DNA of 20,965 bases from a virus. Shown here one piece after another: positions 2,569 to 20,390 of this stretch. The notes beneath the pieces were generated by a model. The model worked only from the letters and a program-made list of their open reading frames with translations, had not been told where the DNA came from and ran no database searches. Each line of letters begins with the position of its first letter. The stretch's first letter is position 1. Location: the IMG/VR virus record IMGVR_UViG_3300031974_001484, positions 1 through 20,965 of that record, one strand, 5' to 3'. The translations under genes were made by a program, and so were the position numbers.

Positions 2569-5500
2569 GTGCCGTATAAACATGAAGGATTAGCTAACCC
2601 TTTTGGCCAAGTGTCACCCGCTGACAACAACGAGGGTTACAACTCACAAGACTACTCTTCTAATCTAAACGAAGATACCGCCAAAAATTTGCTAGGAGAC
2701 AACAGGTTTCTAAAAGACCTGTATGACTACTATGGGCAAAGAGATGGCAAGTCTTTCAACAACGCAGACGAAGCTGTTGAGTACATGCTTAATGACAGGC
2801 GTTGGCGTAACAATAACACGATCTCAATAGGTCGAGACGTATACGACGCATACAACCAGACAGATGGTCAGACACGCAGACTGGCCCGCATCCAACAAGT
2901 ATATGACGCATTGCCGTTCGGCGTAGATGGTGCAATGGAAGCCATCGCCGAAACTGGCGCGGCTATGCTTGCTGACCCAATCAACTTAATTGGCTTTGGT
3001 GCTGGTGGGCAAGCCGCACGACTAGCCGCTGGCACAGCGGCCAAAGGCCTTTCCAAGCGAGAGATAACAAAACAAGCTATGGGCAAAGCCATTGCATCTG
3101 GTGCAAAAGGCGAAGCCGTAGCTTCTGGTATTGCAGAAGGCATCGCAGACATCGGTATCCAAAACCGTAACGTAGCTGTTGGCCTGCAAGACGAAGTTTC
3201 ACTACTTAGAGGTGCGGGAGCCGCCGCCTTTGGTGCAGTGACTGGTGGCGCTATGGGCGCTGGCATGGGTGCTTTAGGTGCTGTTGCGCCTAAGATACCT
3301 GGCGCAGACAAGATACCTTTACTTGGTCGCGCATTTGATGACACTACAGACGGTGCAAACCAGTTGTCAGCGGAAGGTTTGGCCCAGATCAGCGCTCGTA
3401 CTGGGCAAAACATGGATAGAAACTCTATCCGTCGTGGTTTGGCAGACAGGGCTGTAAGTCAATCTGGCCGTCAAATAGATGAGGGTCTCGTTGCAAGGCC
3501 TTCTGCTCGTGGGGACATGTTACCAGAAGGCGACGATGGCGACGAAGTAGATACAAGTGTTGCTCTGGAAAGTAATCTTAAGCGCACCAAAGAAGAACTG
3601 GAAACACGCTTAAAAGACATTCAAAACATGGTTGACGACGGAGACACTGTTGGCGCAGACAACGCTCGCCGCACAGTCGTCGCTCCGCTACAGCAAAAGA
3701 TTACACGTATTAAAAACATTATGGCATGGCCTCAGAACAGAGCCGCCGCACAAGCAAAAATAGATGCCGAACGCAGACGCATGGCAGAGGCTGGTGAAAA
3801 CCAAAGTGCTGAACTAGACCGCCTTAACAAGTCCTACGAAGAACAAGAGACTGATTATATACAGTTTGTTAATCAGGTTAAATCTGAAAAAGCCAGAGGT
3901 CAAAGCCAACTTACGGAAAGACTTGACACGTTCTTAGACGGACAGTCAGGAGAGCTTCTGGAAGATGCTGTGGAAATCGAGGGCGGCACTGTATCTCCTG
4001 GTATGCCGCAAGCACAGCGCATGACGCCTCTGAACCCACCAGAGGGGGATACTCCAACTCCACAAGAGTTGCGTCCACAACCCCCAGAGGAACCAGAGAC
4101 TGGCGACGTAGCGCAAGAGACTGTAGAACAGGTAGCACAAGAAGCCGAGCAAGCCCCAGAGGTAAGCCCAGACGAACGCATGACGCAAATCAATGCCCGT
4201 CTTGATGGCCGCAAGAAAGGTAGTATTGCGTATGAGCGTAAACGCCTTGAGCGTGAAATGGCTAACATGCCTGAGACAAATGAAGACGGCACTCCCAACC
4301 CAGAACGTCTTACCCTTCAGAACCGCCTTAACGAGATAGACAAAGAAGGCGTGGCTCTAAAAGAAGAGCAACAGTCACTCAACAATGCTCGTGCAGAAGA
4401 GCAACAACAGGCGGCTGACCAGCTTGCAAATGGCAACCCAGAGCAAGTTACTCAAGCACAGGTTTTAGAACAGCGTGTAAATGAACAGCCAGAAGTAGCG
4501 CCAACTGAGCCACCAGAGCCAGTTGTATCTGTGGACACACAGCTAAACGAGTTTATCGATACAGAGTTTGTTCCTTCTGTAAGAAACATTAAGAAAGAGT
4601 TTGCCGCTCTGGGTATGCGTAAAGAACAGTCAGACGCAATCGTCGGCGCTATGCCAAAAGGCAACAGCAAGGAAAACATTGAAGCACGTAGGGCTATATT
4701 TAGAGATACAGTCAACGTAGTCCGTGGCCAGAACGCATGGCAACAAATACTAAACAGGTCTTCTGGCAACGGAACCACTGATGAATTGTTCGACGAGAAC
4801 ATAGCCAAAGCACTGATAGAGGCTACAGTAGGAGAGGGTTTGCACCCACATGCTGACAGTGCTTTCCGTGAGTGGCGAGCTAGGTCTGTAGCCCGTTACG
4901 CTATGGACTTGGACAACGAGTTCATGGGTCTTGCCACAATACAAGACTTGCTAGACGTAACTCGCACCCGTCACGGCGAGGGTGAGTTCTACGACATGGT
5001 AGCCGAGTTCTGGGCTAACGCACAGAAAGGTATCCTACCATCACCAGACGATGGTATGCCGCAGTTTGTACGTCAACAGATCGCTACACTTCCGAAAGAG
5101 ATGCAAGTCGAATGGAACGCCTTTAGACAGGCGGCTGTCCGCAATCTTATGAAGACTGGCAAGCTGTCAGAAGCTAACGCCAAAAGACTAATCGCCACTC
5201 AGATTGATGCTATGCTTGACCGCTTCTTGCAGATGCAGGCGTATCAAGCGACAGACCTCAAAGGAAATGTGTACAGTGTGAAGCATCTTGCCACACGTAC
5301 AATGAAGGCCGTTGATGTCAACGAGCAGGCTATAAAAGACGGACACGGAGAACACATTGGCCGTGTCCAACAAAATCTACGCAATGTAACGACAGGCAAT
5401 GGTCGGGCTGGCTCTGGAAGAGACATTAGCTCACGCATGGTTGGCCGTGTGCAAAGCATCCTTGCTGGTACACACGAAGGAGGGTTTGGCGGCAGAACAT

Positions 5501-8500
5501 TTACTCAAATCCGCACAACTCGTGACGGCAAGAACTTTATATACAACGCATCTGAAAGTGCTAGACGCCTAAACGAAGAGGCGATGCTAAACGCCAACAA
5601 GTCTAAAGCAAGAGCCTTTGATGAGACATTGCGCGAGCGTAGCATAGAAGCCGCTGAACGTGCTAAAGACGAAGGCAGGCAGAATGTTCTTGATCCTAGA
5701 GACTTGGAGGACATACAGAAAGAACTGCGTAACGCAGAGGGCGCTGTTAAAAGAGCGCAGAAGCATTACGACGACGTAATCAACGAAGGTGCTACAAGCG
5801 ACGACCCGCAATACCTGAACGACTTGGACGAAGGTAGGGATGTACCAAATCAGGGCGAGCCAGAAGCAAAGACAAAGCTGGAAAATGCACAGGCACGTCT
5901 TGCTCAAGCAATACAAAACGTAAGAACAGTAGCAACCTTCCCAGATGATGCAGACCTCGACGTAGTTAAGGCCGCACTCAAAGACGTGTACGAGCCTTTG
6001 GTTTATACGGATAGAGCTACAGTTGTATCCAACAAAATTGAAGCTGACAGAATGTCTGCTGTGCGTCGCTACTACGAAGTAGAGGCAAGAGCAAAGGCTG
6101 TAAACAAAGACATAGCCATAGCCGAGCGTCAAGGCAACGCATCAAAAGCTGTAGAGCTAAAGAAAGAACGTGCGAAGCTAAACAAGCGTAAGAAAGAAAT
6201 GCTTGACCGCATGACCACTTCCGACAAGAAGCGGATAAAGGCAGATGATACACAGGCCGCTGTCAGAACACTGGCTAACTTGCATAGAGAGCTTCGTCGT
6301 GCAAGGTCTCAGGATGCTGAGACATCATCTGATGTTCCAGAGAGCGAACTTGTTAGAGAAGTGGAAGACGTATTTAACGTCAACCTCAGTGAAGACGATA
6401 TGGCGGCGGCTGAATACTACGCTAACCAAGAAGAGCTTGCGGCTCTTAGCTATCAGGAAATGCAGGGCGAGCTTGCACACTTGCAAGACAACAAAGCTGA
6501 TCTTGCGCCAGAAGAAGTTACCGCTGTAGCTAAAGAGATTGTCACTACAGCGCAAGAGAAGGTGCAATCTACAAAGCCTCAGACCCGTCCTAAAGGTGAG
6601 CCAGAGCCGCACATAGTCCAGATCGGAAGCCGTGCTTACAACATGGCAAAGGACGTTCAGTACCAGAAGGTATCTGGAGGCACTACTAAGTTCTTTGTAA
6701 ATCAAAGAGAGCTTGGCTCTGTACGTGAGTTCGTGGACGAGGATGGTAAAAAAGCCTACCAAATCATTCGTCGCAACGGCGACACTGTTACATCTGACAT
6801 GGCCTTTACTCGTAGTGAGTTGTACAAGAAGCTGGCCAAGTCGGTGAAGAAAGAACTTGATGAAGTTCTTTCTTCAAATAACGTAGTCGAAGAAAGATCA
6901 GTAGCAACTGTTCCGACAGAAATACCAGACTACCACAACACACAGCGCTACGCTGGCGTAGAAGACGCCCCACTTACTGTGACTTCATACGACCCTATCA
7001 CTGGTGCGTCTGAGCAAATACCAGTGCGTACAGGTTTGACACAAGATTTGATGCCTGAAGGCAAGATCATAGCGCTACAGATTACAGACCCCAAACACCC
7101 AGACTTCGGGAAGAACAAGGGCGTCCGTGTACTTAACCTGACAAGCAGAAAAGGGACGCCACCTCAGACTAACCTGAAACAGATCGTGGGCAACCTGAAG
7201 CCCGACCAGTTCGTAGTCGGTTCTACAAACGACGTAGATGCTAAAGGAAACCCAATCAAGTCAGGAACAGTCGCCGCAGTAAAGACGTTCCGCCCACTAG
7301 ACCCAGACGCTGAGTTTGTAACCATGAGTGGCGAGCGTTTGACTGGCCGCCAAGCTGGTGAGACAGAAAGCCTGTTACCACCAGAAGTTGTGGGTCTGGA
7401 AAGCTCTCCTCGCGCTAGAGAGAACAGAGCTATCAATGTCAAAGAGCTTGATAACATTGAGCTAAATGAACAAAACACTCCTCCTCTGTTGAAGCAGTTA
7501 GGTCTTCCAGAGAATGTACGCACAGTGGGTGACTTACAGCGTTTTGTCACAGACATGGAAGACGTAGAGTGGAGCAAGTTTAACAGCATCGAAGAGTTCG
7601 ATCAGTTCGCTGGTGCGTTAGAAGCTGGATATGATGCTATTGCAAAGTTCGCCCCTAATGGCGTTAAGCTACCTAACCAGTCCCGTGTACAGTCTTACAA
7701 GCAACTTAACGAAATGCTTTCTGGCAAGGACAGTAAAGAGATTGCAGAGATACTAACGGTATTCAACATGATCTCTGGCTCCAACAATAGGCAGGGTGCT
7801 TTGGTTGAGGGTGCTATGCCAGTGTTTGATAAGGCGGACAGATATGCCTTCAAACAACCTGGCCGCCACATGGCAGACGATGCCCAGACAAATACTATAC
7901 TTATTGGACAGTCTAATAAGCAGACTGATGCGATGAACTTCGCACATGAAATGGGGCATTGGGCTTACATGAACATGCTAACTCCTGCCGAACGCATGGA
8001 GTTTTGGCAGATAGCAAGAGGCTACGTAGGCGCTGACGGTGCAAACATAGACGCCCTGAAGAAAAAACTGCCAGGACTTAGCACTTCCGAAATACGTAGT
8101 CCGTCTGAGTTTTTTGCAAATCAGTTCGCTATATACGTAGCCAACCGCAGGCAAGCGGCACAAGGTAATTTACTGTCCAGACTGTTTAAGGATGTGGGCA
8201 GAAAAGCTGAAGGCTTGGTTCGTAGGCTTTTGGGTATGGATAACCCATTAGACGAACAGCTTGTTGAAATGTTTGACCGTATCATGCCTGATCCAAAGAT
8301 TGCTACAGATAGCGTAACTGCTGGTCGCCCGTTAAAGAACCAGTTTGAGACTATAGCCGCAAAAGGTGGAGGGAGTTCTGCGGCGAGAATGGCGGCTAAA
8401 CAGTTGCATGATCTGCGAGAGGTTCAGATAGAGCTTGAAGAAGCACTACGGGCTGGCGGCGCTGTTGGCCATGATGCTCGCATACTTGCCGACGTACTAG

Positions 8501-11500
8501 AGAAGGCCGCAAAGAGAGTATACGGGAAGTTTGGTGGCCGTCCTGGCGAGAAGACACACGCTAGTCGCACAGACGCAGACGGCAACGTAGTCTCTGGTGG
8601 CCTGCGGGTGACGATGCTCGACAGCTACAGAAACGGCAAGCCGCTTTACGATGCAAACAAAACTGACATTACCCTTCCAAACGGCAAGACAGTAAAACCC
8701 TTTAAGTACATGTCTAGCCGCATCGCTCGTGGTCGTATGCTTGCTCAATCTTACCGCATCATGCGCTTCCTTAACGACGAGAAGTTTACTAATGCGCTTA
8801 GTAGGCTTGACCAAGCAGAGCTTGTGGAAGATGAGTTGAGTGCAGAGTTGGCAAGGCTAATTGCCACTCAAGAAGACGGCGGACTTATGTCCATTCCAGA
8901 AGAGGTTGTCGCCAACATGAGCGATAACAGCGGTTCTTTAGCAAGTTCGTTTGAAACAGAGGCCGCCATTCTACGCTCAATCTCAGAGAAAACAGATGCA
9001 GATGGCAAGCTGTCAGCGCTTATGGTTCAGCAAGCCAACGATATGATTGTTGCTTTGGACAACGGCATAGATGAGTTTGTACGCATATACAACACAAACT
9101 TCAGAACTACAGACGGACTAGCGCCTCAAATAGATAAGGCTGGTCGTGTGTATAAAGGCGGCAATCTAGTCGCACAGAAATACGTGAAGCGTGTAGAGAA
9201 GAAGTCTAAAGACCTTGCTGTCAAAGTGGCTCAATCAATAAACAACGCAGAGACAGAGGTGTTTGGTAACGCATCTGTGGAAGACGTAAACCCAGTAACA
9301 TCTAGGTCTCCTAAAGAGATGACCAACCAAGAGATACTAAAACGTCTTGGCACAGACAGGTCTGATACGGCTCAAAACAGGGAGCTTAAACAAGAGCTTT
9401 GGTCTAGGGCAAAGGCATTGCCTGACGACCACGCCGTCGAAGCTACGCCAGAAATCGCCGCTTTCTACAGAGATGTAAACATTGAAGACAACGGCGCTGA
9501 TGCACTGGTCAGATTTGAGAAAGCACTAGACGAAGGCAACTACGACCTTGCGGAAGCGGCCATAAACTTCGTCGCCTTCTTGAAACGCAACCCAGTAGAG
9601 GTGAAGTCAAGCGTCGTCAACCGTGCCATCGACATTGAAACTGCACAACGCAGTACACCCGACACGCAGAACGGCATACCTGGCGATGCTCCTGCCGCAG
9701 TCAAAGAGGTTCTTACAAAGCTAACTCACAGAGACAAGAAGGTAGAGTATGTGTCTCGTACAATCATGTACCGTATGCTGAACCTTATGGGCAGAACGGC
9801 TACAGACTTGGTTGAGAACAAAACAACCTTTATGTCTGTAGAGGACTTGTACAGAATGTCAGGCAACCCAATGCCGCAAGGAACTCAAGCGGCATTTGCA
9901 GAGCCTGCAATCCTTAGTGGTCAAGCGTTTAACGATACCCGCAAACAACTAAGACAGTTCGCCATAGGCATCACTGGTGGGTCATCTGATCCGACTGATG
10001 TAATGCACGAGATAGGACACATGCTTAGTCGTGTAACCCTCGACGACGTTGACAGAGACCACATGCTTCAGGGTTACACGGAGGCTATTGAGAAGGGTGA
10101 TCGTAACGCACTAAGAATACAAGAAGCATATTCAAACTTAGCTTTAGATGAACCATACACAGAGCGTCAGATAGCGGAAGAGTGGTTCGTAGATGGCTTT
10201 GGCGAATGGATGACAGAGCGAGTAGCTAAAGGAAACCTGTTTGATGTGCGTCAAGGAGACGGCACGTTTGCAGACCTGACTGTCAAGGGATACTTAAGAC
10301 AGATTGCTGACAGGCTGTATGAGAGCGTTGCATACGTTCTAAACGGTATGATTGGTAGAAAGTCTGTTCGCCAGATGTACCGCCAGATGCTTTATCATGG
10401 CGATATGTTTGCTCGTAAGCGTTCTGAGAACCCAATTAAATCAGCCGTAAACACTCACGAGTATCCTGCTGTAAGCCCTGCGCTTGCAAAGCCATACGTG
10501 CGTCAAGTAATTGACAGCATGAGCAGAGAAAAGCAGTTACTACTTAGGGAGTTCTTGGGTGCTGGGCCAGACGAAGACTTAATGGACTTTGTTTCTTACC
10601 ATGGCACACCTGTACTAGATCAGTTTGATAGGTCTCGGAACCCCGACGTATACCTGATACCTAGTGAAGACGGATACCACGGGCCAGGTGTATACACATC
10701 AAGTAACCACAACTTCGCGGCTGGTTACGCTGACAGAACTCCTGCTGAAGCATATCGCAGACTGGCAGGAGACCTTGAGGGTGAGAAGCTAGAGCAAGCA
10801 GAAGGCATCATTAAGCAGATAGAAGAGGCTAACGAATGGCTTGAACATTCTCAGTGGATGGCAACTGTTGATGCACCGCAAGACAAGGTTTTGGATCGCG
10901 TTGCTCACCTGACCGCAAAACTGGAGACTGCTAAAGAAGCCTTTGCCAGACTTACTGGAAACAAAAAGATGGCAGGCGTACTGCCTATGTTTGTTCGTCG
11001 CAAGAACCATTTTGATGTCAGAACTAACAAGACCTTTAGCTACAGCACAGGCGAGCCTTCAGACGTACAGCCGTTGCTTGTTTCTGCACAAAAGCGTGGC
11101 TACATAACCGAACATCAGCATCAGTACATATCAGACTACATACGTGAGGGTGGTGTAGACGGCGGTTATTTCTACGACCTTATGACAAACGCTATGGCTA
11201 AGTACAGAGATGCGTATGGTCAAGCCCACAATCCTAAAAGCCATGCACATGCCGACCATGTATATGGTCGCAAGAGAATGGCGCAGTTCTTAAAGGACGA
11301 AGGGTACGAAGGTATCATTGGCGAGGCTGGGAATGACCCTAACATGCCAGAAATAATCACCTTCGACCCGAACCACATTAAGCATGTAGACGCAGACTTC
11401 TACGACAGCGACAGACGTGGAATGTACTACAGCGTTCTTGGTGAGCCAGGCACAGTTGCACCAGCAGGAAATGCATTAGAAGGCATGATGCTTTCGGGGA

Positions 11501-14178
11501 AACCAATCAACCTAGACGACATGGTTGGTATAAGCCGTCAGCTACAGGAGGCTGGCGTACCAGACTTGGTAGCACCGATACGGCGTATGGTTCGTAAGGA
11601 ACGACCAACTGCTGAAGACGTAGATGCTGTTAAAAAGAACTCTTCGATCTTCCACTTCTTTGCAGAGAATAGTGCAAGACTGAGAGACTACGGAGCAACT
11701 TGGCTAGGCGACTATATAAAACCACAGAATGGTACAGGCATATATGAACGCCACGACGTAGACTTAGCTGACAAGGTTATGCCTATATTCAACTCGCTCA
11801 AGCTACTGCCTGACAACAAGGGTTGGACAAAGCGTTGGGCAAGAAAGTCTTTGGCGTTCTTACCTAATAAGGTGACGTCAGGTGCTGACCTACAATCACA
11901 GCCGCAGTCTCACTCTCGCATACTCGGTGCAATCAGACGTGGGGAAGACGATGTGAGGAAGCTGAACCCACAGGAACAGCGCATTGCTCGCCAGATTATC
12001 GCGGCGTTTGAAGCTGAGAGAGAGCGTATGGTATCGATGAACATGCCAGTAGGCGATGCTCGTCGTGGGCCAGGCGACTACTATGTGCCGCAACAGTGGG
12101 ACATAGAGATCATAAGGCAAAATCCGTCAAAGGCTAAACAGGCATTTGCACAATTCTTCTTTGAGGAAAGCCGCAGGCCAGACTTTGAAGAGGCAACCTT
12201 GACCCCAGATCAGGCGCATAGAAAGTCAGAAGATTTTATCAACGGCCTTCTGGACACCGATGGAGAAATCTACGGGGACGACGTACTACGTCGTGCCGTC
12301 GGCGACCCATTCTATAATCGTGTCATTAACCTCCAGCCAGAGCAGTACGACTTTATGGATAGCTTCCTAGTCAACGATCTGGAAGGACTGCTATCAAGAT
12401 ACTTTGACAGCACGACACGTAAGATAGCACTAACAGAAAAGTTTGGGGTAGGTGGACACGGCTTCTCTTCATACATGACGACTGCAAGCCAAGGTGTGGA
12501 TGGTGCTGTTAAGACGTTGATGTCAAACAAGAAAGTTGTTTACAGATACAGACAGTACCAAGAAGAAGCACCTATAGAGCAGATGCTTGTACCAGCTTTG
12601 AAGATTGGTGAAGACAAGACTAAGCAGTTGATGGAAACATCTTTGCGTATGCTGAAATCAAAGGAAGCTACCGTTGACGAAGTTAAACGGATGATCCTGT
12701 CACACTATGATCCACAAGATCAGGCAGACCCCAATCTGCAAATACGTGTAGACAGCATTGTAAACGCTCTAAAGGATTTCCCAACAAGGCCGCCACAAGA
12801 CCAAGCTAGGATGTTGGCTGAAGACATGATCGACATTCTGAACAAGCGACCTCTTAGAAAGTTCTCAGAGAACCAAACCGCTTATAAGGTCTCAAGAAAC
12901 GTCAAGGCGTTTAACTCTATATCACTGCTTGGCTTTACAACCCTAACTTCTTTGGGTGATAAGGTTCTGCCGCTGATACGTTCTGGAAACATGAAAGCCT
13001 TTCTGAAGGCGCAGAAAAAATACTACAGCGATCCATCCTATCGTGCCGCCGCCAAGAACATTGGCGTTGGCATTGAGAACCTAATGCATGACCGCATGGT
13101 TCAGATGGCTGGTGAAGGTTCCCAGAAGCTACAAAACAGCTTCTTTAACTTCACACTACTAACTCCTTGGACAAACATGAACAGGGAGATAGCAGGCGTA
13201 GTGGGCTTTGAGGCCTTCAAGTCTGAGATAGCTAGAGCCAGAAGGCTTGCAACAACAGGCAGAAAGGATAGCAGAGCTTACGCAACAGCAGTTCGTTTCC
13301 TGACAAGGTATGGCCTAACTGGTGAAGGAGCGGAGATGGACTTCTTGAACATCAATGCACCAGAGCTTACAGACATACGTGAGACAGACATGCAGTCTAA
13401 CAAGGCTCTTAGGTATGCTCTTCTCAGGTTTACCAACGAAGCAATCTTTACGCCTAACCCTAATGACATACCGACATGGGCGCAGACCCCGTGGGGTTCT
13501 ATGTTCTTCCAGCTAAAGAGCTTCCAGTTAATGATGGCTCGTATGGGTAAGTACGTTCTCAGTGAGGCGTACAACGGAAACCCAATGCCAGCATTTTACT
13601 TAGCTACTGCTGGTGTTGGATTCGGCTGGATGAGTGCGGCGGCCAAAGACCACGTTCAATCTCGTGGTGGAGAAGACAATGAGCAGGCCGCATTAAGAGA
13701 GCGTCGCATAACTGATACCTCTTTCGACTGGATGGCCAAGGGCTTGGGAGTAAAAGAGGACAGCATGACTGACGAAGTTCTTGGGAACTACTTTGAAGGC
13801 TTGTTGGCTATAGGCGGTCTTGGGTTGTTTGCGGAGCTTCTGTACAACACGGCAGAGCAGGCAGACAACGCGGCATACGGCAAGGTTCGTATGGCTGGTG
13901 CAGTGTTCGGCCCATCGGTTGGCGTTGCTGAAGACTTCTACGACGTAGCCATAGCTGGGCCAGGCGGGTTCTTTGAAGACAAAGCGGCTCGTCGTCGTGA
14001 AGCTGTACGGTCAGTGATGGGCAGAGTGCCTATAGTCGGTGGCGTCAGAGGCTTCAAGGAAGGAGTGGTTGACGCTGTAGCTGGCGAGGCTGGGTCTGGA
14101 GGTAAGAGGAAACAGGCGAGCAAGTTTGGTAAGAGTTCTGGATTTGGGAGTAGCGGCTTCGGGAAGGATGGCTTCTAA
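2569..14178 (+). CDS. Giant polyvalent virion protein, 3869 aa: two HExxH peptidase motifs, an ADP-ribosyltransferase-like domain and a gp16-like position
   Basis: Start is GTG, supported by GGAG 7 nt upstream. Visible layout: Gly/Ala-rich hydrophobic stretches at ~125-165 and ~214-240; coiled coils at ~330-470, 530-640 and 1040-1260; a Pro/Glu/Gln-rich linker at ~474-535; a zinc-peptidase motif HEMGH at 1793-1797 with a likely third ligand E1847 in SEFFANQFA; a second motif HEIGH at 2480-2484 with E2537/E2538 in AEEWFVDGF. An ART-like domain spans 2677-2938: YHGT at 2677, GPGVYTS at 2705, E2928 and FDPNHIK at 2932, with a helical insertion. The last ~900 residues are mostly helical, with hydrophobic segments around 3655-3785, and end in a Lys/Gly/Phe tail. 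Phage polyvalent proteins combining such enzymes are known to enter cells with the DNA. Gene order suggests a T7 gp16-type ejection role, but I see no lysozyme or transglycosylase motif. Coding is certain; domain calls are by eye. Confidence 0.88.
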   Translation: MPYKHEGLANPFGQVSPADNNEGYNSQDYSSNLNEDTAKNLLGDNRFLKDLYDYYGQRDGKSFNNADEAVEYMLNDRRWRNNNTISIGRDVYDAYNQTDGQTRRLARIQQVYDALPFGVDGAMEAIAETGAAMLADPINLIGFGAGGQAARLAAGTAAKGLSKREITKQAMGKAIASGAKGEAVASGIAEGIADIGIQNRNVAVGLQDEVSLLRGAGAAAFGAVTGGAMGAGMGALGAVAPKIPGADKIPLLGRAFDDTTDGANQLSAEGLAQISARTGQNMDRNSIRRGLADRAVSQSGRQIDEGLVARPSARGDMLPEGDDGDEVDTSVALESNLKRTKEELETRLKDIQNMVDDGDTVGADNARRTVVAPLQQKITRIKNIMAWPQNRAAAQAKIDAERRRMAEAGENQSAELDRLNKSYEEQETDYIQFVNQVKSEKARGQSQLTERLDTFLDGQSGELLEDAVEIEGGTVSPGMPQAQRMTPLNPPEGDTPTPQELRPQPPEEPETGDVAQETVEQVAQEAEQAPEVSPDERMTQINARLDGRKKGSIAYERKRLEREMANMPETNEDGTPNPERLTLQNRLNEIDKEGVALKEEQQSLNNARAEEQQQAADQLANGNPEQVTQAQVLEQRVNEQPEVAPTEPPEPVVSVDTQLNEFIDTEFVPSVRNIKKEFAALGMRKEQSDAIVGAMPKGNSKENIEARRAIFRDTVNVVRGQNAWQQILNRSSGNGTTDELFDENIAKALIEATVGEGLHPHADSAFREWRARSVARYAMDLDNEFMGLATIQDLLDVTRTRHGEGEFYDMVAEFWANAQKGILPSPDDGMPQFVRQQIATLPKEMQVEWNAFRQAAVRNLMKTGKLSEANAKRLIATQIDAMLDRFLQMQAYQATDLKGNVYSVKHLATRTMKAVDVNEQAIKDGHGEHIGRVQQNLRNVTTGNGRAGSGRDISSRMVGRVQSILAGTHEGGFGGRTFTQIRTTRDGKNFIYNASESARRLNEEAMLNANKSKARAFDETLRERSIEAAERAKDEGRQNVLDPRDLEDIQKELRNAEGAVKRAQKHYDDVINEGATSDDPQYLNDLDEGRDVPNQGEPEAKTKLENAQARLAQAIQNVRTVATFPDDADLDVVKAALKDVYEPLVYTDRATVVSNKIEADRMSAVRRYYEVEARAKAVNKDIAIAERQGNASKAVELKKERAKLNKRKKEMLDRMTTSDKKRIKADDTQAAVRTLANLHRELRRARSQDAETSSDVPESELVREVEDVFNVNLSEDDMAAAEYYANQEELAALSYQEMQGELAHLQDNKADLAPEEVTAVAKEIVTTAQEKVQSTKPQTRPKGEPEPHIVQIGSRAYNMAKDVQYQKVSGGTTKFFVNQRELGSVREFVDEDGKKAYQIIRRNGDTVTSDMAFTRSELYKKLAKSVKKELDEVLSSNNVVEERSVATVPTEIPDYHNTQRYAGVEDAPLTVTSYDPITGASEQIPVRTGLTQDLMPEGKIIALQITDPKHPDFGKNKGVRVLNLTSRKGTPPQTNLKQIVGNLKPDQFVVGSTNDVDAKGNPIKSGTVAAVKTFRPLDPDAEFVTMSGERLTGRQAGETESLLPPEVVGLESSPRARENRAINVKELDNIELNEQNTPPLLKQLGLPENVRTVGDLQRFVTDMEDVEWSKFNSIEEFDQFAGALEAGYDAIAKFAPNGVKLPNQSRVQSYKQLNEMLSGKDSKEIAEILTVFNMISGSNNRQGALVEGAMPVFDKADRYAFKQPGRHMADDAQTNTILIGQSNKQTDAMNFAHEMGHWAYMNMLTPAERMEFWQIARGYVGADGANIDALKKKLPGLSTSEIRSPSEFFANQFAIYVANRRQAAQGNLLSRLFKDVGRKAEGLVRRLLGMDNPLDEQLVEMFDRIMPDPKIATDSVTAGRPLKNQFETIAAKGGGSSAARMAAKQLHDLREVQIELEEALRAGGAVGHDARILADVLEKAAKRVYGKFGGRPGEKTHASRTDADGNVVSGGLRVTMLDSYRNGKPLYDANKTDITLPNGKTVKPFKYMSSRIARGRMLAQSYRIMRFLNDEKFTNALSRLDQAELVEDELSAELARLIATQEDGGLMSIPEEVVANMSDNSGSLASSFETEAAILRSISEKTDADGKLSALMVQQANDMIVALDNGIDEFVRIYNTNFRTTDGLAPQIDKAGRVYKGGNLVAQKYVKRVEKKSKDLAVKVAQSINNAETEVFGNASVEDVNPVTSRSPKEMTNQEILKRLGTDRSDTAQNRELKQELWSRAKALPDDHAVEATPEIAAFYRDVNIEDNGADALVRFEKALDEGNYDLAEAAINFVAFLKRNPVEVKSSVVNRAIDIETAQRSTPDTQNGIPGDAPAAVKEVLTKLTHRDKKVEYVSRTIMYRMLNLMGRTATDLVENKTTFMSVEDLYRMSGNPMPQGTQAAFAEPAILSGQAFNDTRKQLRQFAIGITGGSSDPTDVMHEIGHMLSRVTLDDVDRDHMLQGYTEAIEKGDRNALRIQEAYSNLALDEPYTERQIAEEWFVDGFGEWMTERVAKGNLFDVRQGDGTFADLTVKGYLRQIADRLYESVAYVLNGMIGRKSVRQMYRQMLYHGDMFARKRSENPIKSAVNTHEYPAVSPALAKPYVRQVIDSMSREKQLLLREFLGAGPDEDLMDFVSYHGTPVLDQFDRSRNPDVYLIPSEDGYHGPGVYTSSNHNFAAGYADRTPAEAYRRLAGDLEGEKLEQAEGIIKQIEEANEWLEHSQWMATVDAPQDKVLDRVAHLTAKLETAKEAFARLTGNKKMAGVLPMFVRRKNHFDVRTNKTFSYSTGEPSDVQPLLVSAQKRGYITEHQHQYISDYIREGGVDGGYFYDLMTNAMAKYRDAYGQAHNPKSHAHADHVYGRKRMAQFLKDEGYEGIIGEAGNDPNMPEIITFDPNHIKHVDADFYDSDRRGMYYSVLGEPGTVAPAGNALEGMMLSGKPINLDDMVGISRQLQEAGVPDLVAPIRRMVRKERPTAEDVDAVKKNSSIFHFFAENSARLRDYGATWLGDYIKPQNGTGIYERHDVDLADKVMPIFNSLKLLPDNKGWTKRWARKSLAFLPNKVTSGADLQSQPQSHSRILGAIRRGEDDVRKLNPQEQRIARQIIAAFEAERERMVSMNMPVGDARRGPGDYYVPQQWDIEIIRQNPSKAKQAFAQFFFEESRRPDFEEATLTPDQAHRKSEDFINGLLDTDGEIYGDDVLRRAVGDPFYNRVINLQPEQYDFMDSFLVNDLEGLLSRYFDSTTRKIALTEKFGVGGHGFSSYMTTASQGVDGAVKTLMSNKKVVYRYRQYQEEAPIEQMLVPALKIGEDKTKQLMETSLRMLKSKEATVDEVKRMILSHYDPQDQADPNLQIRVDSIVNALKDFPTRPPQDQARMLAEDMIDILNKRPLRKFSENQTAYKVSRNVKAFNSISLLGFTTLTSLGDKVLPLIRSGNMKAFLKAQKKYYSDPSYRAAAKNIGVGIENLMHDRMVQMAGEGSQKLQNSFFNFTLLTPWTNMNREIAGVVGFEAFKSEIARARRLATTGRKDSRAYATAVRFLTRYGLTGEGAEMDFLNINAPELTDIRETDMQSNKALRYALLRFTNEAIFTPNPNDIPTWAQTPWGSMFFQLKSFQLMMARMGKYVLSEAYNGNPMPAFYLATAGVGFGWMSAAAKDHVQSRGGEDNEQAALRERRITDTSFDWMAKGLGVKEDSMTDEVLGNYFEGLLAIGGLGLFAELLYNTAEQADNAAYGKVRMAGAVFGPSVGVAEDFYDVAIAGPGGFFEDKAARRREAVRSVMGRVPIVGGVRGFKEGVVDAVAGEAGSGGKRKQASKFGKSSGFGSSGFGKDGF

Positions 14179-14614: not shown

Positions 14615-14786
14615 GCTGGATAACAACCAGTGTCCAAGATGTTACTGCAATCTGCCAGCGGTAGAGGTGCATGGACATATACAATGCCAAGTTTGCCACC
14701 TCTACATATCAGAGTGTTGCAACGGAGAAACAGGAGGAGAAACAGGAGAGACAGATGTTATCTGCACTAATCGGGCCAGTAAGTAG
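14586..14786 (+). CDS. Zinc-ribbon small protein (66 aa), overlapping both neighbours
   Basis: An ATG at 14586 gives 66 residues with a CPRC (16-19) and a CQVC (34-37) pair, separated by AVEVHGHIQ: a classic CxxC...CxxC zinc ribbon, followed by a CC pair (44-45) and an acidic Gly/Glu/Thr tail. An upstream in-frame ATG at 14562 would add eight residues, but would overlap the holin frame further and shows no better ribosome site. It overlaps the holin-like gene by 29 bp and the next holin by 32 bp, each in a different frame. The ribbon pattern is too regular to be a chance shadow. Function is unknown; it might bind nucleic acid or regulate lysis. Confidence 0.72.
   Translation: MKEKGPIQNKLDNNQCPRCYCNLPAVEVHGHIQCQVCHLYISECCNGETGGETGETDVICTNRASK
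14724..14748 (+). repeat. Tandem 12-bp repeat carrying duplicated ribosome binding sites
   Basis: GGAGAAACAGGA occurs twice back to back (14724-14735, 14736-14747). This yields AGGAGGAG at 14732-14739 and AGGAG at 14744-14748, the second 6 nt before the holin ATG at 14755. In the zinc-ribbon frame the same bases encode the repeated ETGG/ETGE tail. Confidence 0.8.
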
Positions 14787-15174
14787 TCTACTGGATAAGT
14801 TCATACCAGACGCTGACACCAAGCAGAAGTTGGCGCACGACATAGCGACGATGGCACAAAAACATGCCCACGAAGCGGCGATGGCACAAGTCGAAGCGAA
14901 CGTGGCACAAGCAAAGCACTCATCCATGTTCGTCGCTGGGGCTAGGCCAGCCATCATGTGGATATGTGCGCTCGGACTACTAACAAATTTCTTTCTACTT
15001 CCTTTGGCTGAGTGGGGTACGGCTATCTTTGCACCTGAAATTCCGATGCCAAAATTTGATCAACTACAATCAGGAGAGCTTATGACCCTAACTCTTTCAT
15101 TACTGGGTCTCGGCGGTATGAGAAGCTGGGAAAAATCTAAAGGCGTAGCCAGGAAGAACATGAAGGATGAGTGA
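14755..15174 (+). CDS. Holin of the GTA three-TM family (139 aa)
   Basis: The start at 14755 is chosen because AGGAG lies 6 nt upstream; an in-frame ATG at 14671 would add 28 residues that only mirror the zinc-ribbon gene. The protein begins with a short hydrophobic helix (2-13), then a long Ala/Gln/His/Lys helix (20-57), a strong transmembrane segment at ~65-87 (PAIMWICALGLLTNFFLL) and a second at ~108-122, ending in MRSWEKSKG. This layout matches the family first described for gene transfer agent release in Alphaproteobacteria (holin of 3TMs). It would permeabilise the inner membrane so that the endolysin encoded next can reach the wall. It overlaps the endolysin gene by 8 bp. Confidence 0.85.
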   Translation: MLSALIGPVSSLLDKFIPDADTKQKLAHDIATMAQKHAHEAAMAQVEANVAQAKHSSMFVAGARPAIMWICALGLLTNFFLLPLAEWGTAIFAPEIPMPKFDQLQSGELMTLTLSLLGLGGMRSWEKSKGVARKNMKDE

Positions 15175-15628
15175 CTTCAAGCTATCTGAACGTAGTCTCA
15201 GCAAGTTAGAGGGTGTAGACGAGCGCCTGAAGCTGGTTGTGCTTACAGCAATCAAGCACACCGACGTAGACTTCGGAGTAATCTGCGGACTACGAACAGA
15301 AGAAGAGCAGGCCGAGCTTTTCAAAAAGGGTGCGTCTCAGACCATGAAGTCTAAGCACTTAGAGGGCAAAGCTGTAGACCTCATGGCATACATCGGCTCT
15401 CGTGGTTCATGGGAACTTAACCTCTACGACAACATCGCTGACGCAATGAAGAAGGCGGCAAAGAAAGTTAAGGTTTCGATCCGTTGGGGGGCGGCTTGGC
15501 ACATACACAATATCGCTGAGTTCGATGGGACGATGGAGTGGGCCGCTTCAAGTTATATTGATGTACGTAGAGCAGAGGGAAAGCGTCCATTCATTGACGC
15601 TCCTCACTTTGAGATATGGGGTGACTGA
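15167..15628 (+). CDS. Endolysin, M15-family L,D-/D,D-peptidase (153 aa)
   Basis: A compact single-domain peptidase. The signature KSKHLEGKAVDL provides zinc ligands H64 and D71, and DAPHFEIW provides the third ligand H147. CGLRTEEEQAELF near residue 40 is the usual preceding strand and Arg motif. This is the M15C pattern of the T5 endolysin and VanY-like enzymes, which cleave peptidoglycan stem peptides (often the L-Ala-D-Glu bond). There is no signal peptide, so export depends on the holin just upstream. The length is typical for the family. Which bond is cut cannot be read from sequence. Confidence 0.92.
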   Translation: MSDFKLSERSLSKLEGVDERLKLVVLTAIKHTDVDFGVICGLRTEEEQAELFKKGASQTMKSKHLEGKAVDLMAYIGSRGSWELNLYDNIADAMKKAAKKVKVSIRWGAAWHIHNIAEFDGTMEWAASSYIDVRRAEGKRPFIDAPHFEIWGD

Positions 15629-15913: not shown

Positions 15914-16080
15914 TGGACAGCAACTGCAAGCAAGAAATATATAGGGATGCGGCGAAGTCTTTTGCCAAGCCCAAAGAACGCTTAAGCAAGAACAGGTCAA
16001 TGCACATTGCTAAGTATGTAAGCAGGGCTAATCAACGGAAGGTGTGTCAGCCTGTGAGCAAGAAAAAGAAGCTAGGGTAG
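15913..16080 (+). CDS. Small basic protein of unknown function (55 aa)
   Basis: TAATG overlap with the preceding gene; the purine-rich GGAAGAAGAAG just upstream can serve as ribosome site. The protein is 55 residues, Lys/Arg-rich, with two cysteines (C5, C46) and a KKKK cluster near the end. No domain is recognisable. Support comes from the coupled start, the gap of only 9 bp to the next gene, and a composition like its neighbours. Confidence 0.58.
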   Translation: MDSNCKQEIYRDAAKSFAKPKERLSKNRSMHIAKYVSRANQRKVCQPVSKKKKLG

Positions 16081-16089
16081 GAAGATGGT

Positions 16090-16539
16090 ATGGAGCCAGT
16101 TACTGCCGCTGTTGCGGCTTTCAGCGCACTAAAGGCGGGCGTTTCTGCTGGCAAAGAGATCACCTCTTTGGCAAAAGAGATCGGCTCGCTCTGGAACTCC
16201 ATAGATGAAATAAACAACGCACACAACAAGAAGAAGTCTAGTGTGTTTCGTAGTGTGGAGGAGGAAGCTCTCGACACCTTCATGGCCAAAAAGAAGGCCG
16301 AAGACATGGAGAACCAACTTAGAGAGATCATCATCTACAGCAGAGGTGTGGGCGCTTGGCAAGAACTTATAAGGCTACGTGCTAACATACGGAAGAAGAG
16401 ACAAGAGGAGGCCGCTAGAATACGCAAGAAACGACGAGAGATGATTGAGATAATCTTAATGTCAGGCGCAATAATTATAGGTATATCAGCGCTTCTCGTG
16501 TTTGCTTTGTTCTTGGTAAACAGACATGTCCAACAGTAG
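16090..16539 (+). CDS. Helical protein with a C-terminal membrane anchor (149 aa)
   Basis: The N-terminus (residues 3-35) is an Ala-rich amphipathic stretch (TAAVAAFSALKAGVSAGKE). A long charged helix follows, about 45-117, rich in Lys/Glu/Arg and probably coiled coil, and then a strong single transmembrane segment at ~119-143 with a short HVQQ tail. The opening residues and the ALDTFMAKKKAEDMENQLREII block look like a recurring phage protein family without assigned function. Close to the lysis genes it could be a membrane-anchored lysis accessory, but its anchor is C-terminal, unlike a typical i-spanin. AGGA (16079-16082) is 7 nt upstream of the ATG. Confidence 0.8.
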   Translation: MEPVTAAVAAFSALKAGVSAGKEITSLAKEIGSLWNSIDEINNAHNKKKSSVFRSVEEEALDTFMAKKKAEDMENQLREIIIYSRGVGAWQELIRLRANIRKKRQEEAARIRKKRREMIEIILMSGAIIIGISALLVFALFLVNRHVQQ

Positions 16540-17454: not shown

Positions 17455-17656
17455 TGATGTGCCTCGCTTGCCTTATCAGTTCATCAAGTGATCTGTTGAG
17501 TTCTTCCTCTCTTTTCTTCCGTGCCTGACCCTGTTGCATAAACAGTACATCACTCGCCTCGGCACAGAGTTTCTTAAACTTCTGCGTAATCCACATATCG
17601 CCACAGCTAACTATCTCTGGCGGTATTGGGCCTTGCCATCCACTACGCTTTGGCAT
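17435..17656 (-). CDS. Small helical protein of unknown function (73 aa)
   Basis: Starts 14 bp inside the nuclease gene, with GAGGT 9 nt before the ATG. Residues 1-22 form a Pro/Trp-containing N-terminal part (KRSGWQGPIPPEIVSCGD) and residues 23-73 a long charged helix (many E, R, Q, K). No catalytic motif or membrane segment is visible. It lies between a nuclease and a kinase, so a role in DNA metabolism is possible but unsupported. Both ends overlap neighbours, typical of translational coupling. Confidence 0.65.
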   Translation of the reverse strand: MPKRSGWQGPIPPEIVSCGDMWITQKFKKLCAEASDVLFMQQGQARKKREEELNRSLDELIRQARHINEQKEN

Positions 17657-18434
17657 GTGGTTCGTACCTCACCCAATCCAAGCACTTTTCTGTACACCCC
17701 TTACTGCACGTCCACTCTGCGCTAGTAGTTGAGGCATGGCAGTTGCCACACGTCCGCATGTTTTTTTCTGGTTCAGCACCATGCCAACATGCGTCTCGCT
17801 TGAAGCAACCACGACATCGCCAGTCGGCTTCATCAATAGAAATTTTTTGGCCAAGTCCATTGATAATGTCCTCAACCTTTTGCTTCAGTGCGTTGTAAAA
17901 AAATATATCGAAGTCCACCCATTCGTGGTGGTAGTCGGATGTGTTCTTGTTGTAGCTAACTAGGACTGCTCTATCCATGCCAGCCAGCCCCATCAGGTAT
18001 TGCATCTGGGCGAAGTACATAGGGTGGCTATACTTGACGCCCTTCTTTGAGAACTCCTTGAACTTGTTATCGTTCATAGACTTGATCTCAACTATCGCCA
18101 TACCATCATCTGTTTCGACGATGCCATCCGCGTTACCCATACTGTTCCCGTGGTAGTCCGTGTACCGCCACTGCTTACCACTCATTGGGTCTTTGTCCAT
18201 GACATGGACACCAGCCTTTGCCATATCACCCAAGACAACGTATTCAATACGATGACCATCTCTAAAGATGCGCTTTAACTTGGGGTCTGGGGGTGTATCG
18301 GGGTAGCCCCTATGGCTGAAAGACAGCATGGCTGTACAGTCATGGCCAACAGAACTAGCGCCGATATATGATCTAGCCTTCTCGCGTTTATCTTTAGCGA
18401 AGTAGTCATCAATCAGTTTGGATATGTCTATCAT
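17643..18434 (-). CDS. Cas4/RecB-like PD-(D/E)XK nuclease with Fe-S-type cysteines and an extra zinc ribbon (263 aa)
   Basis: The nuclease core shows H61 in FRDGHRIE, D103 in GNADGIV and E116-x-K118 in AIVEIKS, the metal-binding set of the PD-(D/E)XK family; AQMQY (142-146) resembles the following helix motif. A single N-terminal cysteine (C33) together with C207-x2-C210-x5-C216 matches the 4Fe-4S arrangement of Cas4 and AddB-type nucleases. A further C229-x2-C232 and C243-x3-C247 (plus C251) at the C-terminus look like an added zinc ribbon. It probably processes DNA ends or resects one strand for recombination with the Sak4-like ATPase and SSB upstream. There are no cas genes or CRISPR repeats, so adaptation is unlikely. 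The start overlaps the methyltransferase stop (ATGA). Confidence 0.85.
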   Translation of the reverse strand: MIDISKLIDDYFAKDKREKARSYIGASSVGHDCTAMLSFSHRGYPDTPPDPKLKRIFRDGHRIEYVVLGDMAKAGVHVMDKDPMSGKQWRYTDYHGNSMGNADGIVETDDGMAIVEIKSMNDNKFKEFSKKGVKYSHPMYFAQMQYLMGLAGMDRAVLVSYNKNTSDYHHEWVDFDIFFYNALKQKVEDIINGLGQKISIDEADWRCRGCFKRDACWHGAEPEKNMRTCGNCHASTTSAEWTCSKGCTEKCLDWVRYEPHAKA

Positions 18435-19036
18435 GTCTTTTCCAGTACAAGAAAGTAAGCGTGAAACATACGTGCGTGTTTTTGAACACGCTTCGCCGCA
18501 CCGATCTGTTGGGGAACATTCATTCTGTGTTTTGCTGTGAGAATGAACATGTCTCTTAACCTAAATTTATTTTCACACCAGTTCACAACATTGATATGAG
18601 TGGGGTGCATCTTGTGATTATGTATGATGTCTTGGCACTTGAACACAAAGACACCTTTGGGTTGTAAAATTCTGTGAACTTCTGTGATTGTTTTTTTGTA
18701 GTGTTCTTCCAGTTCGTCGTACCGCCAATAACCGCCATACCTTTTGGACATCACCATGTCCCCATTCCCACTACGTCCATTGCGGACATAGGTCAGAAAG
18801 GGTGGATCAAACACAACTGAAGACAGGGAACAGTCCATCAATGGCAGTCTTGTACTGCAAGCCTGCATGACATCACTTGACTGAGGGTCTATGTCGTACC
18901 TAAGAGATGGCTTAGATACGTGCTTGTAAAAACTTCCGTTGCCGTAACTTATGTCGGCATCAAAAGACGACCTGTTCGTTAGCGTCAGGATGTTCCTTAA
19001 GATTTCGTTTTGATCATCTGATACTGACTTAATCAT
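18431..19036 (-). CDS. DNA methyltransferase with a DPPF motif (201 aa)
   Basis: A small class I SAM-dependent methyltransferase. DISYGNGSFYK (28-38) is a plausible SAM-binding motif I, RYDIDP (46-51) carries the acidic ribose ligand, and FDPPF (76-80) is the catalytic motif IV typical of N6-adenine or N4-cytosine DNA methylases. LQPKGVFVFKCQD and the C-terminal strand (HAYFLVLEKT) complete the fold. No restriction gene is present, so it is probably a solitary enzyme that protects or marks phage DNA. The target base and site cannot be read. There is no Shine-Dalgarno: the ATG lies 7 nt after a terminator stem, so initiation must be unusual, or expression is kept low. Confidence 0.82.
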   Translation of the reverse strand: MIKSVSDDQNEILRNILTLTNRSSFDADISYGNGSFYKHVSKPSLRYDIDPQSSDVMQACSTRLPLMDCSLSSVVFDPPFLTYVRNGRSGNGDMVMSKRYGGYWRYDELEEHYKKTITEVHRILQPKGVFVFKCQDIIHNHKMHPTHINVVNWCENKFRLRDMFILTAKHRMNVPQQIGAAKRVQKHARMFHAYFLVLEKT

Positions 19037-19080: not shown

Positions 19081-19596
19081 CTAGAAAGGAACGTCGTCGT
19101 CGAGGCCGCTCTTCGCGGCTCCGTTCATCTGGTTGGCAACCGCCGCACCTAATGGGTTATTGATTGCTTCTGCATTGAACTCAGGGTTGATGCGCTTTGG
19201 ATCTTTATAAGAGGCGACCTTGTTGTTTGTCTTGCCGTTGTAGGTGTCCTCCTTCACATAGATACCTACCATCAGACCCTTTAGGACAGATAAGTTACCA
19301 TCAGGGAATGGGTTGTCTGGGTCAGGATGACCACCCCAATGACACAAAGACTTCAGTTGCGACAGCCCAATCTCAGCGTTCTTCGGGTGGTTAGGGTTGT
19401 GAACAATGATCCAGTCAGTGATAGTGCGTACACCATCAACCTCTCTCATAGACACAACCACTTGCTGTGCGCCAGTTGTCTTGGTCTCGCCTTTTACATC
19501 GGTGACTTCGACAACGTGGTTGCCAACAGGCAGGATGCTACCCCCACCAGATACCTCAATGTTCTTGAGGTTTAGATTATTGAATGTGAAACTCAT
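19081..19596 (-). CDS. SSB-like protein with an acidic tail, DUF669-type (171 aa)
   Basis: Residues ~1-120 look like a beta-rich single domain (VGNHVVEVTDVKGE, QQVVVSMREVDG, DWIIVHNP, GLSQLKSLC), resembling the phage DUF669 family that serves as single-strand DNA-binding protein. The last residues, DDDVPF, mimic the DDDIPF tip of bacterial SSB, which recruits partner enzymes. A Gly/Ala/Asn-rich linker joins the two. The gene overlaps the ATPase stop (ATGA) and has GGAG 7 nt upstream, implying high expression. Pairing with a Sak4-like ATPase is known in other phages, where the cognate SSB stimulates annealing. The exact family is by eye. Confidence 0.78.
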   Translation of the reverse strand: MSFTFNNLNLKNIEVSGGGSILPVGNHVVEVTDVKGETKTTGAQQVVVSMREVDGVRTITDWIIVHNPNHPKNAEIGLSQLKSLCHWGGHPDPDNPFPDGNLSVLKGLMVGIYVKEDTYNGKTNNKVASYKDPKRINPEFNAEAINNPLGAAVANQMNGAAKSGLDDDVPF

Positions 19597-20390
19597 GCTT
19601 CGCTCCTTTTTTCAAATTCTTCATCATCCATGTCCATCTTCTTAAATAGATTGACGATGTTTCCAGTTTGCTCGACTGCTCTCAGTCTTCGTTTTTCGTC
19701 CCTGACCTTGCCCTTCCAGCCGTTGTATTCTTCTGTGACGACGTACCGAATAACCTTACCTTCTCCTGCTGAGTGGGCGTCAGATGTATGACGAACCCCA
19801 CAGAACACGTTGTCGAAAATACCTGGAAGCTGTTGCTGTGCTTGCTTGCCAGCCACCATAGGCCAGTATTCAACATTGCCGTTGTCGTCCTGTCCTTCTT
19901 TAGCCAGAGCAGTTACAAGGAAGTGGCATGGCATATCACGCATAGCCTTACACGCACCGATCAGGTTCTTTGCGTGGTCGGAAAAAATCTGGAAGCCGTT
20001 TACTTGCTTGCCAGCTTTCTGTGCATCCGCTTCTGCGACCTTAGTCGCATGAGCCATGCTCATGTCACTGAGTTCAGTAAGGCTGTCGATGCCTATCCAC
20101 TTGTATTCACGACCTTTGAAGTCATCGGTACGCATCCACTTGAATATATCGACAAAGCTGTACTGATTTTTGTCAGGCTCGGACGGGTTGCCCCATGATG
20201 TGAACGGCAAGTAGTCAATACCAGCGTCACGAATTGAGCTAAGTCCGCTCTCACCTGACAAGATAAACCCATTACCAAAATGTTTTTGGTAGTGAATGAA
20301 CTGGGTTGTCTTTCCCCAGCCATGATGGCCATACAGCAACGTCTTTCTATACGATGTCGTATGGTCAGAAGTGTTTAGTGGTTGGAACAT
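19593..20390 (-). CDS. Sak4-like RecA-fold ATPase / single-strand annealing protein (265 aa)
   Basis: Walker A is GHHGWGKTT at 21-29, and Walker B is WIGIDSLTEL with D102. FILSGESGLSSI (42-53) and HFLVTALAKEGQDDNG further on match the phage AAA/RecA-core family often annotated as nucleotide-binding protein. In temperate phages the Sak4 members anneal complementary strands in cooperation with a neighbouring SSB. Here the SSB-like gene follows with a 4-bp overlap, and a nuclease lies further downstream, supporting a recombination or replication-repair role. The ATG overlaps the preceding stop (TAATG). A DNA-packaging or helicase-loading ATPase is less likely given the neighbours. Confidence 0.82.
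   Translation of the reverse strand: MFQPLNTSDHTTSYRKTLLYGHHGWGKTTQFIHYQKHFGNGFILSGESGLSSIRDAGIDYLPFTSWGNPSEPDKNQYSFVDIFKWMRTDDFKGREYKWIGIDSLTELSDMSMAHATKVAEADAQKAGKQVNGFQIFSDHAKNLIGACKAMRDMPCHFLVTALAKEGQDDNGNVEYWPMVAGKQAQQQLPGIFDNVFCGVRHTSDAHSAGEGKVIRYVVTEEYNGWKGKVRDEKRRLRAVEQTGNIVNLFKKMDMDDEEFEKRSEA

Follow-up and report, generated by a model that had tools for sequence, protein, structure and literature searches.

A giant, probably gp16-type ejection protein of marine phages with predicted zincin and ADP-ribosyltransferase domains

Short-tailed phages send ejection proteins into bacteria before their DNA, and the protein of 3869 residues described here resembles one of these at both of its ends. 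The window analyzed here is the whole of a 20,965-base virus record, in which positions 2569 to 14178 (+) form one frame that starts with GTG and is open over 3869 codons without an internal stop. An independent IMG/VR contig of 33.6 kb (L001) has this ORF with 99.95% identity, and the frame is therefore not an assembly slip. When the gene is set beside a relative that is 80% identical, synonymous differences reach saturation (0.63 to 0.82) and nonsynonymous differences are 0.09 to 0.19 in all regions compared; purifying selection on the gene is strong. The initial annotation placed it in the gp16 slot of an ejection-protein set and credited its product with two zinc-peptidase motifs and an ADP-ribosyltransferase (ART)-like domain. 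The best explanation, to which we assign a probability of about 0.6, is that a CRP-810-type marine phage encodes here a T7 gp16-type ejection protein with polyvalent-protein cargo; the protein is probably a syringe component carrying enzymes.

Homology to T7 gp16 is found in the C-terminal core (residues 2990 to 3838; positions 11536 to 14082, +), which has one hydrophobic segment at residues 3451 to 3469 and three within residues 3673 to 3796. In relatives, the last ~400 to 850 residues match the T7 gp16 family, PHROG 342 (phrog_342), over profile positions 785 to 1210 with E values of 5.9e-22 at best to 2.1e-18; these matches include L057 (E 1.2e-19) and L067 (E 2.1e-18, across the last ~400 positions of the profile). 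The profile is reached by only 3 of 29 family members, and the window protein itself matches PHROGs 16310, 684, and 6958 only; T7 gp16 scores 1354.7 bits against PHROG 342. A 1005-aa protein of Escherichia phage TL-2011b (AEW24591), which matches no zincin or ART, provides the bridge: it matches PHROG 342 at an E value of 4.8e-210 and aligns with residues ~2990 to 3838 (hhalign, 99.8%). In the bridged alignment, MVMQFKSF of T7 stands opposite MFFQLKSF of the 3869-aa protein (FQLKSF, residues 3647 to 3652). When profiles were compared directly with those of five T7-group gp16 sequences, no match appeared without this bridge, and because the small gp16 profile finds nothing unless TL-2011b or the PHROG is interposed, the homology is remote. 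The AlphaFold model of residues 2640 to 3838 (mean pLDDT, 73.7) retrieved BFVD entries named “internal virion protein,” “internal core protein,” and “internal virion protein D” (E 3.6e-7 to 2e-4 over ~900 to 1000 columns), as well as polyvalent-domain proteins at an E value of 2.8e-45. Judged from these comparisons, the C-terminal core belongs with gp16 by remote and bridge-dependent homology. Apart from this shared region, including QFKSF/FQLKSF, the two proteins differ in length (1318 versus 3869 aa) and in the two zincins and the ART added here. The SLT transglycosylase of the T7 kind was not matched in the window protein or its relatives, while T7 gp16 was recovered at an E value of 1.7e-31. 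SLT is also missing from the P22 and Sf6 homologues (PMC8954989) and is thus not universal among gp16-like ejection proteins.

The N-terminal region (residues 25 to 250; 2641 to 3318, +) is likewise related to internal virion proteins. The first ~190 to 250 residues match the “internal virion protein D” of 16 Pelagibacter phage records in tblastn, and the region matches gp37 of HTVC019P with an HMM E value of 7e-41 (hhalign, 100%). The initial assignment to the gp16 slot is therefore upheld by homology of the protein itself at both termini. Hydropathy over the whole protein restricts hydrophobic segments to residues 125 to 239 (125 to 143 and 221 to 239) and 3451 to 3796. In T7 gp16, the same analysis gives segments at residues 319 to 408 and 1136 to 1269, plus one at 894, and TMH I and TMH II flank gp16-C, which is believed to lie in the host cytoplasm (PMC8954989). 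Both proteins have hydrophobic segments near both ends and a large part between them. Some of the matched PHROGs are named just “virion structural protein,” and a similarity to gp16 that is remote and bridge-dependent might reflect shared helical repeats only, in which case the protein would be another structural component, e.g., a tail or head decoration, that stays outside the cell. This is very improbable, as both ends are membrane-like and independently match internal virion proteins.

Gene order gives the context of the giant gene. Synteny with the CRP-810 structural block and a position upstream of the lysis genes place it among late virion genes, the latter being a holin (GTA_holin_3TM; 14671 to 15174, +; PF11351, E 2.4e-16) and an endolysin of the M15-type peptidase family (15167 to 15628, +; phrog_465, E 5.2e-49). 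The 748-aa gene in the gp15 slot (251 to 2497, +) is conserved in relatives, and its similarity to T7 gp15 is undetectable; the “ejection-protein set” of the initial annotation thus draws on the giant gene, gene order, and size, and its gp15 member is unconfirmed. Beyond the lysis genes, positions 17643 to 19036 (−) and 19593 to 20390 (−) hold divergent early-type genes for a Cas4-domain/YqaJ-like exonuclease, a DNA methyltransferase, and an AAA_24 ATPase.

Roseobacter phage CRP-810 is the isolated member of a marine phage family that was proposed recently and whose hosts include Roseobacter CHUG, SAR11, and sphingomonads (PMC11288001). The same source gives “internal virion protein D” as common to all subgroups of the family, and its available text contains no description of a giant gene. 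In the L001/L030 contig, the genes for capsid, tail, and GNAT proteins follow the order seen in CRP-810; the capsid protein of L030, a contig with the same giant gene, is 62% identical to that of CRP-810, and the portal protein of another relative (L036) is 70% identical. On synteny and capsid/portal homology, the phage of the giant gene belongs to the CRP-810-type family. The gene is not peculiar to the window, as a large family of CRP-810-type marine phages keeps it. Among 50,697 phage records, the enzyme block was found in CRP-810 only, at the sensitivity used, and 287 stretches in IMG/VR encode a relative of the C-terminal part; the family of the giant protein is widespread and for the most part undescribed. 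Relatives of the C-terminal core also occur in MAG contigs (L118, L119, L120, and L121) with Phycisphaerae, Neomarinimicrobiota, and Alpha- and Gammaproteobacteria labels, which could be prophages or mis-binned phage contigs.

CRP-810 itself (OR671924) has the same domain order and synteny, but its sequence is split over gp36 (N terminus), gp35 (zincins and ART), and gp34 (C terminus), annotated as internal virion protein D and two hypothetical proteins. The borders (in L003, at 15950 to 16250 for gp35/gp34 and 21950 to 22250 for gp36/gp35) resemble frameshifts when set against relatives with a continuous gene, such as L112, that between gp35 and gp34 being a short tandem duplication; real mutation and sequencing artefact are both possible. 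The split in another relative, L060, is a single in-frame stop. The three-gene arrangement was therefore rejected as evidence for natural module borders.

Complete and near-complete relatives are about 2,900 to 4,000 aa long and keep a single domain order: N-terminal region, spacer, zincin 1, zincin 2 region, ART region, and C-terminal core. Pfam and PHROG scans of the whole 3869-aa protein yielded nothing useful, so that segment scans were required, and an NCBIfam search gave no match. The part between the modules, initially described as largely unassigned, can be broken down to some extent. It comprises a charge-rich spacer that is weakly conserved (residues 250 to 1400; 3316 to 6768, +), defined by conservation profile and composition and with no family match in the whole-protein scan, and a predicted beta-rich region (residues ~1495 to 1595; 7051 to 7353, +) in the AlphaFold model of A5. 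It also holds a near-invariant THRD block (residues 2386 to 2389; 9724 to 9735, +), of which [TS]HR is kept in most relatives without the zincin 2 HExxH. The THR(D/E) block lies ~92 residues ahead of the second HExxH, is still present in many relatives from which zincin 2 and the ART histidine have gone, and is possibly a candidate processing site.

HExxH occurs exactly twice in the protein, as HEMGH at residue 1793 and HEIGH at residue 2480, precisely where the initial annotation had put the two motifs. A shuffled protein of the same composition is expected to hold 0.05 HExxH, and at least two are found in 0.06% of shuffles; the frame with the two motifs and the ART is conserved across a large family of CRP-810-type marine phages and so is not a chance occurrence. 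Predicted zincin 1 (residues 1640 to 1925; 7486 to 8343, +) is supported by conservation, modeling, and hhalign, with HEMGHW at residues 1793 to 1798 (7945 to 7962) and E1847 (8107 to 8109) as the putative third ligand. Its AlphaFold model has a helix, three strands, the HExxH helix, and a Glu-bearing helix, the succession that defines the polyvalent MPTase core (PMC5512222). In an alignment of 62 relatives, some of them near-identical, the site is retained throughout (HExxH in 61 of 61 covering sequences; E1847 in 62 of 62). Between residues 1640 and 3000, 18 columns are at least 97% identical, and five of them belong to the zincin 1 site: H, E, H, W, and E.

Zincin 2 (residues 2350 to 2640; 9616 to 10488, +) has HEIGH at residues 2480 to 2484 (10006 to 10020) and a downstream E2538 (10180 to 10182). 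Its HExxH is kept in 36 of the 62 sequences, all 36 of which have E2538, and is missing from 26. The zincin 1 and zincin 2 profiles match over their whole length (hhalign, 96.4%; E 9e-10), indicating an internal duplication; zincin 2 is a duplicated copy, with its site intact in some lineages and degraded in others. Its state changes at least four times on an unrooted tree of 41 C-terminal cores. In its model, the HExxH and Glu helices are predicted with confidence (block pLDDT, 89 and 86), but the sheet is poorly formed. Two AlphaFold models of 1199 residues each were built, with the alignment row from a named phage record left out; searched whole with Foldseek against the PDB, both gave helical noise only and no match at an E value of ≤0.001, so that neither zincin nor the ART was recovered in this way. 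Pfam zincin matches (Reprolysin_3, M78, and ATLF) were all weak (E ≥0.012), and no Pfam MPTase model was matched; assignment to a Pfam peptidase family was dropped. The zinc-peptidase claim thus holds for the conserved HExxH and downstream Glu, which lie in the expected AlphaFold helices, but the two sites are a duplicated pair of unequal constraint.

The predicted ART domain (residues 2640 to 2960; 10486 to 11448, +) is supported by PF18760, modeling, and conservation. When the segment from 2640 to 3838 was scanned, residues 2782 to 2942 matched Pfam ART-PolyVal (PF18760) at 33.1 bits (cutoff, 31.2; E 1.1e-7), which bears out the ART-like domain initially annotated; the match did not appear when the whole 3869-aa protein was scanned. 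ART-PolyVal is matched by 14 of 29 family members, with E values up to 0.01. The predicted site residues H2678, Y2709, and E2928 sit in predicted strands, and the site of the ART-PolyVal clade is described as H-Y-D (PMC5512222). Among the 62 relatives, the histidine is kept in 49 (missing in 13) and the tyrosine in 55. The third residue varies across relatives (E, D, Q, and others) and is E or D in 44 of the 49 His-keeping sequences if a one-residue shift is allowed. In a PDB profile search, most of the matches were to PARP domains, chiefly those of tankyrases; they were weak (E ~0.04 at best), with alignments at the H and Y motifs. By its predicted site, the ART is of the H-Y-E/D, PARP-like type. 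T4 Alt, an ejected ART of another clade (PMC5512222), has an R-S-E site and proved a poor comparator.

The ART histidine changes at least twice on the same unrooted tree, and we infer loss rather than gain for both zincin 2 and the ART. With zincin 1 invariant and the other two lost repeatedly, the delivery of several effectors, as initially suggested, does not hold throughout the family. The zincin 2 and ART regions are retained where HExxH and the ART histidine have gone, which together with the variable third ART residue would suit structural relics, zincin 2 and the ART now being a noncatalytic scaffold or tether and zincin 1 the sole enzyme. We consider this quite unlikely. The window lineage has HExxH, E2538, H2678, Y2709, and E2928 intact, nonsynonymous change is low, and all 36 relatives with the zincin 2 HExxH also keep both E2538 and the ART histidine, a coupling expected of functional sites.

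As the constant feature of the family, zincin 1 could instead belong to a virion maturation protease, the zincins acting in assembly only by cutting a precursor into ejection proteins inside the procapsid, so that, with the possible exception of the ART, no enzyme would be delivered to the host. P1 DdrB is processed to ~76 kDa ahead of packaging, which is attributed to its own zincin, but the zincin-bearing N4 vRNAP is packaged unprocessed (PMC5512222) and is ejected (PMC12633501). Maturation also leaves the ART unexplained, and we regard it as an unlikely sole function.

On the preferred reading, that of a gp16-type ejection protein with polyvalent cargo, the protein would be packaged and ejected, and both ends would stay on or within the host inner membrane, where, like T7 gp16, they would make up the cytoplasmic end of the channel for DNA. 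The block between the ends, which faces the cytoplasm in T7, would present the two related zincins and the PARP-like ART. Zincin 1 would most likely cut its own polypeptide, releasing or activating segments either inside the head or once the protein has been ejected, and the ART would modify a host target by ADP-ribosylation as soon as infection begins. Conservation suggests that zincin 1 is likely the constant, self-processing enzyme of the family, and on the best reading zincin 2 and the ART would be optional effectors. Counting against this reading, a chain of 3869 residues has to thread a narrow tail. A more general proposal, which we put forward tentatively, is that gp16-type proteins serve as a delivery chassis with anchored ends and a variable enzyme block in the cytoplasm that the invariant zincin cuts loose, so that across a globally distributed family the podovirus-like channel may double as an effector injector.

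Polyvalent proteins with MPTase and ART and giant ejected proteins from N4 are already known. The former, e.g., the N4-like RPP1 vRNAP with MPTase and ART (Iyer et al. 2017, PMC5512222), are also giant multidomain products of late virion genes with a zincin-like MPTase and ART-PolyVal. In contrast, the backbone here is of the gp16 ejection type, and no RNA polymerase, methylase, or helicase was matched. No Pfam LPD domain was matched in the window protein or its relatives; the closest fold matches are named LPD-containing. N4 vRNAP gp50 (PMC12633501) is a good comparator for layout, being an ejected protein of ~3500 aa with a membrane-spanning N-terminal domain, an HExxH-bearing C1, and a large helical C-terminal domain. 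Unlike in gp50, no RNA polymerase domain was detected here, and profile similarity to any domain of the 3869-aa protein was not significant. Profile comparison with the N4 or RPP1 vRNAP gave no match, and no vRNAP PHROG is among the matches listed for the window protein or 13 relatives. The N terminus of CRP-810 gp36 (L003, 22066 to 23211) matched the N4 vRNAP PHROG at positions 295 to 593 (E 5.8e-5); homology was rejected, as profile comparison lends it no support.

We know of no description of a gp16-type ejection backbone with a constant zincin and a variable zincin 2 and ART. No paper in the collection searched pairs “polyvalent protein” with “ejection protein” or “internal virion protein,” and the terms “gp16,” “internal virion,” and “ejection” are absent from PMC5512222. 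The locus joins two separate literatures, on ejection proteins of short-tailed phages (gp16) and on polyvalent effector proteins. If the preferred reading is true, the inner-membrane component of the DNA channel would itself carry host-modifying enzymes in a marine phage family. The unequal fates of the two zincins and the ART lead to a clear prediction as to the essential activity, and with CRP-810 in culture, direct tests can be made of what its virions contain and of processing and injection. In L030, a short gene (10473 to 10940) within the structural module, between the tail-fiber-like and ejection genes, is 27% identical to the CRP-810 GNAT acetyltransferase, and its product might also be packaged.
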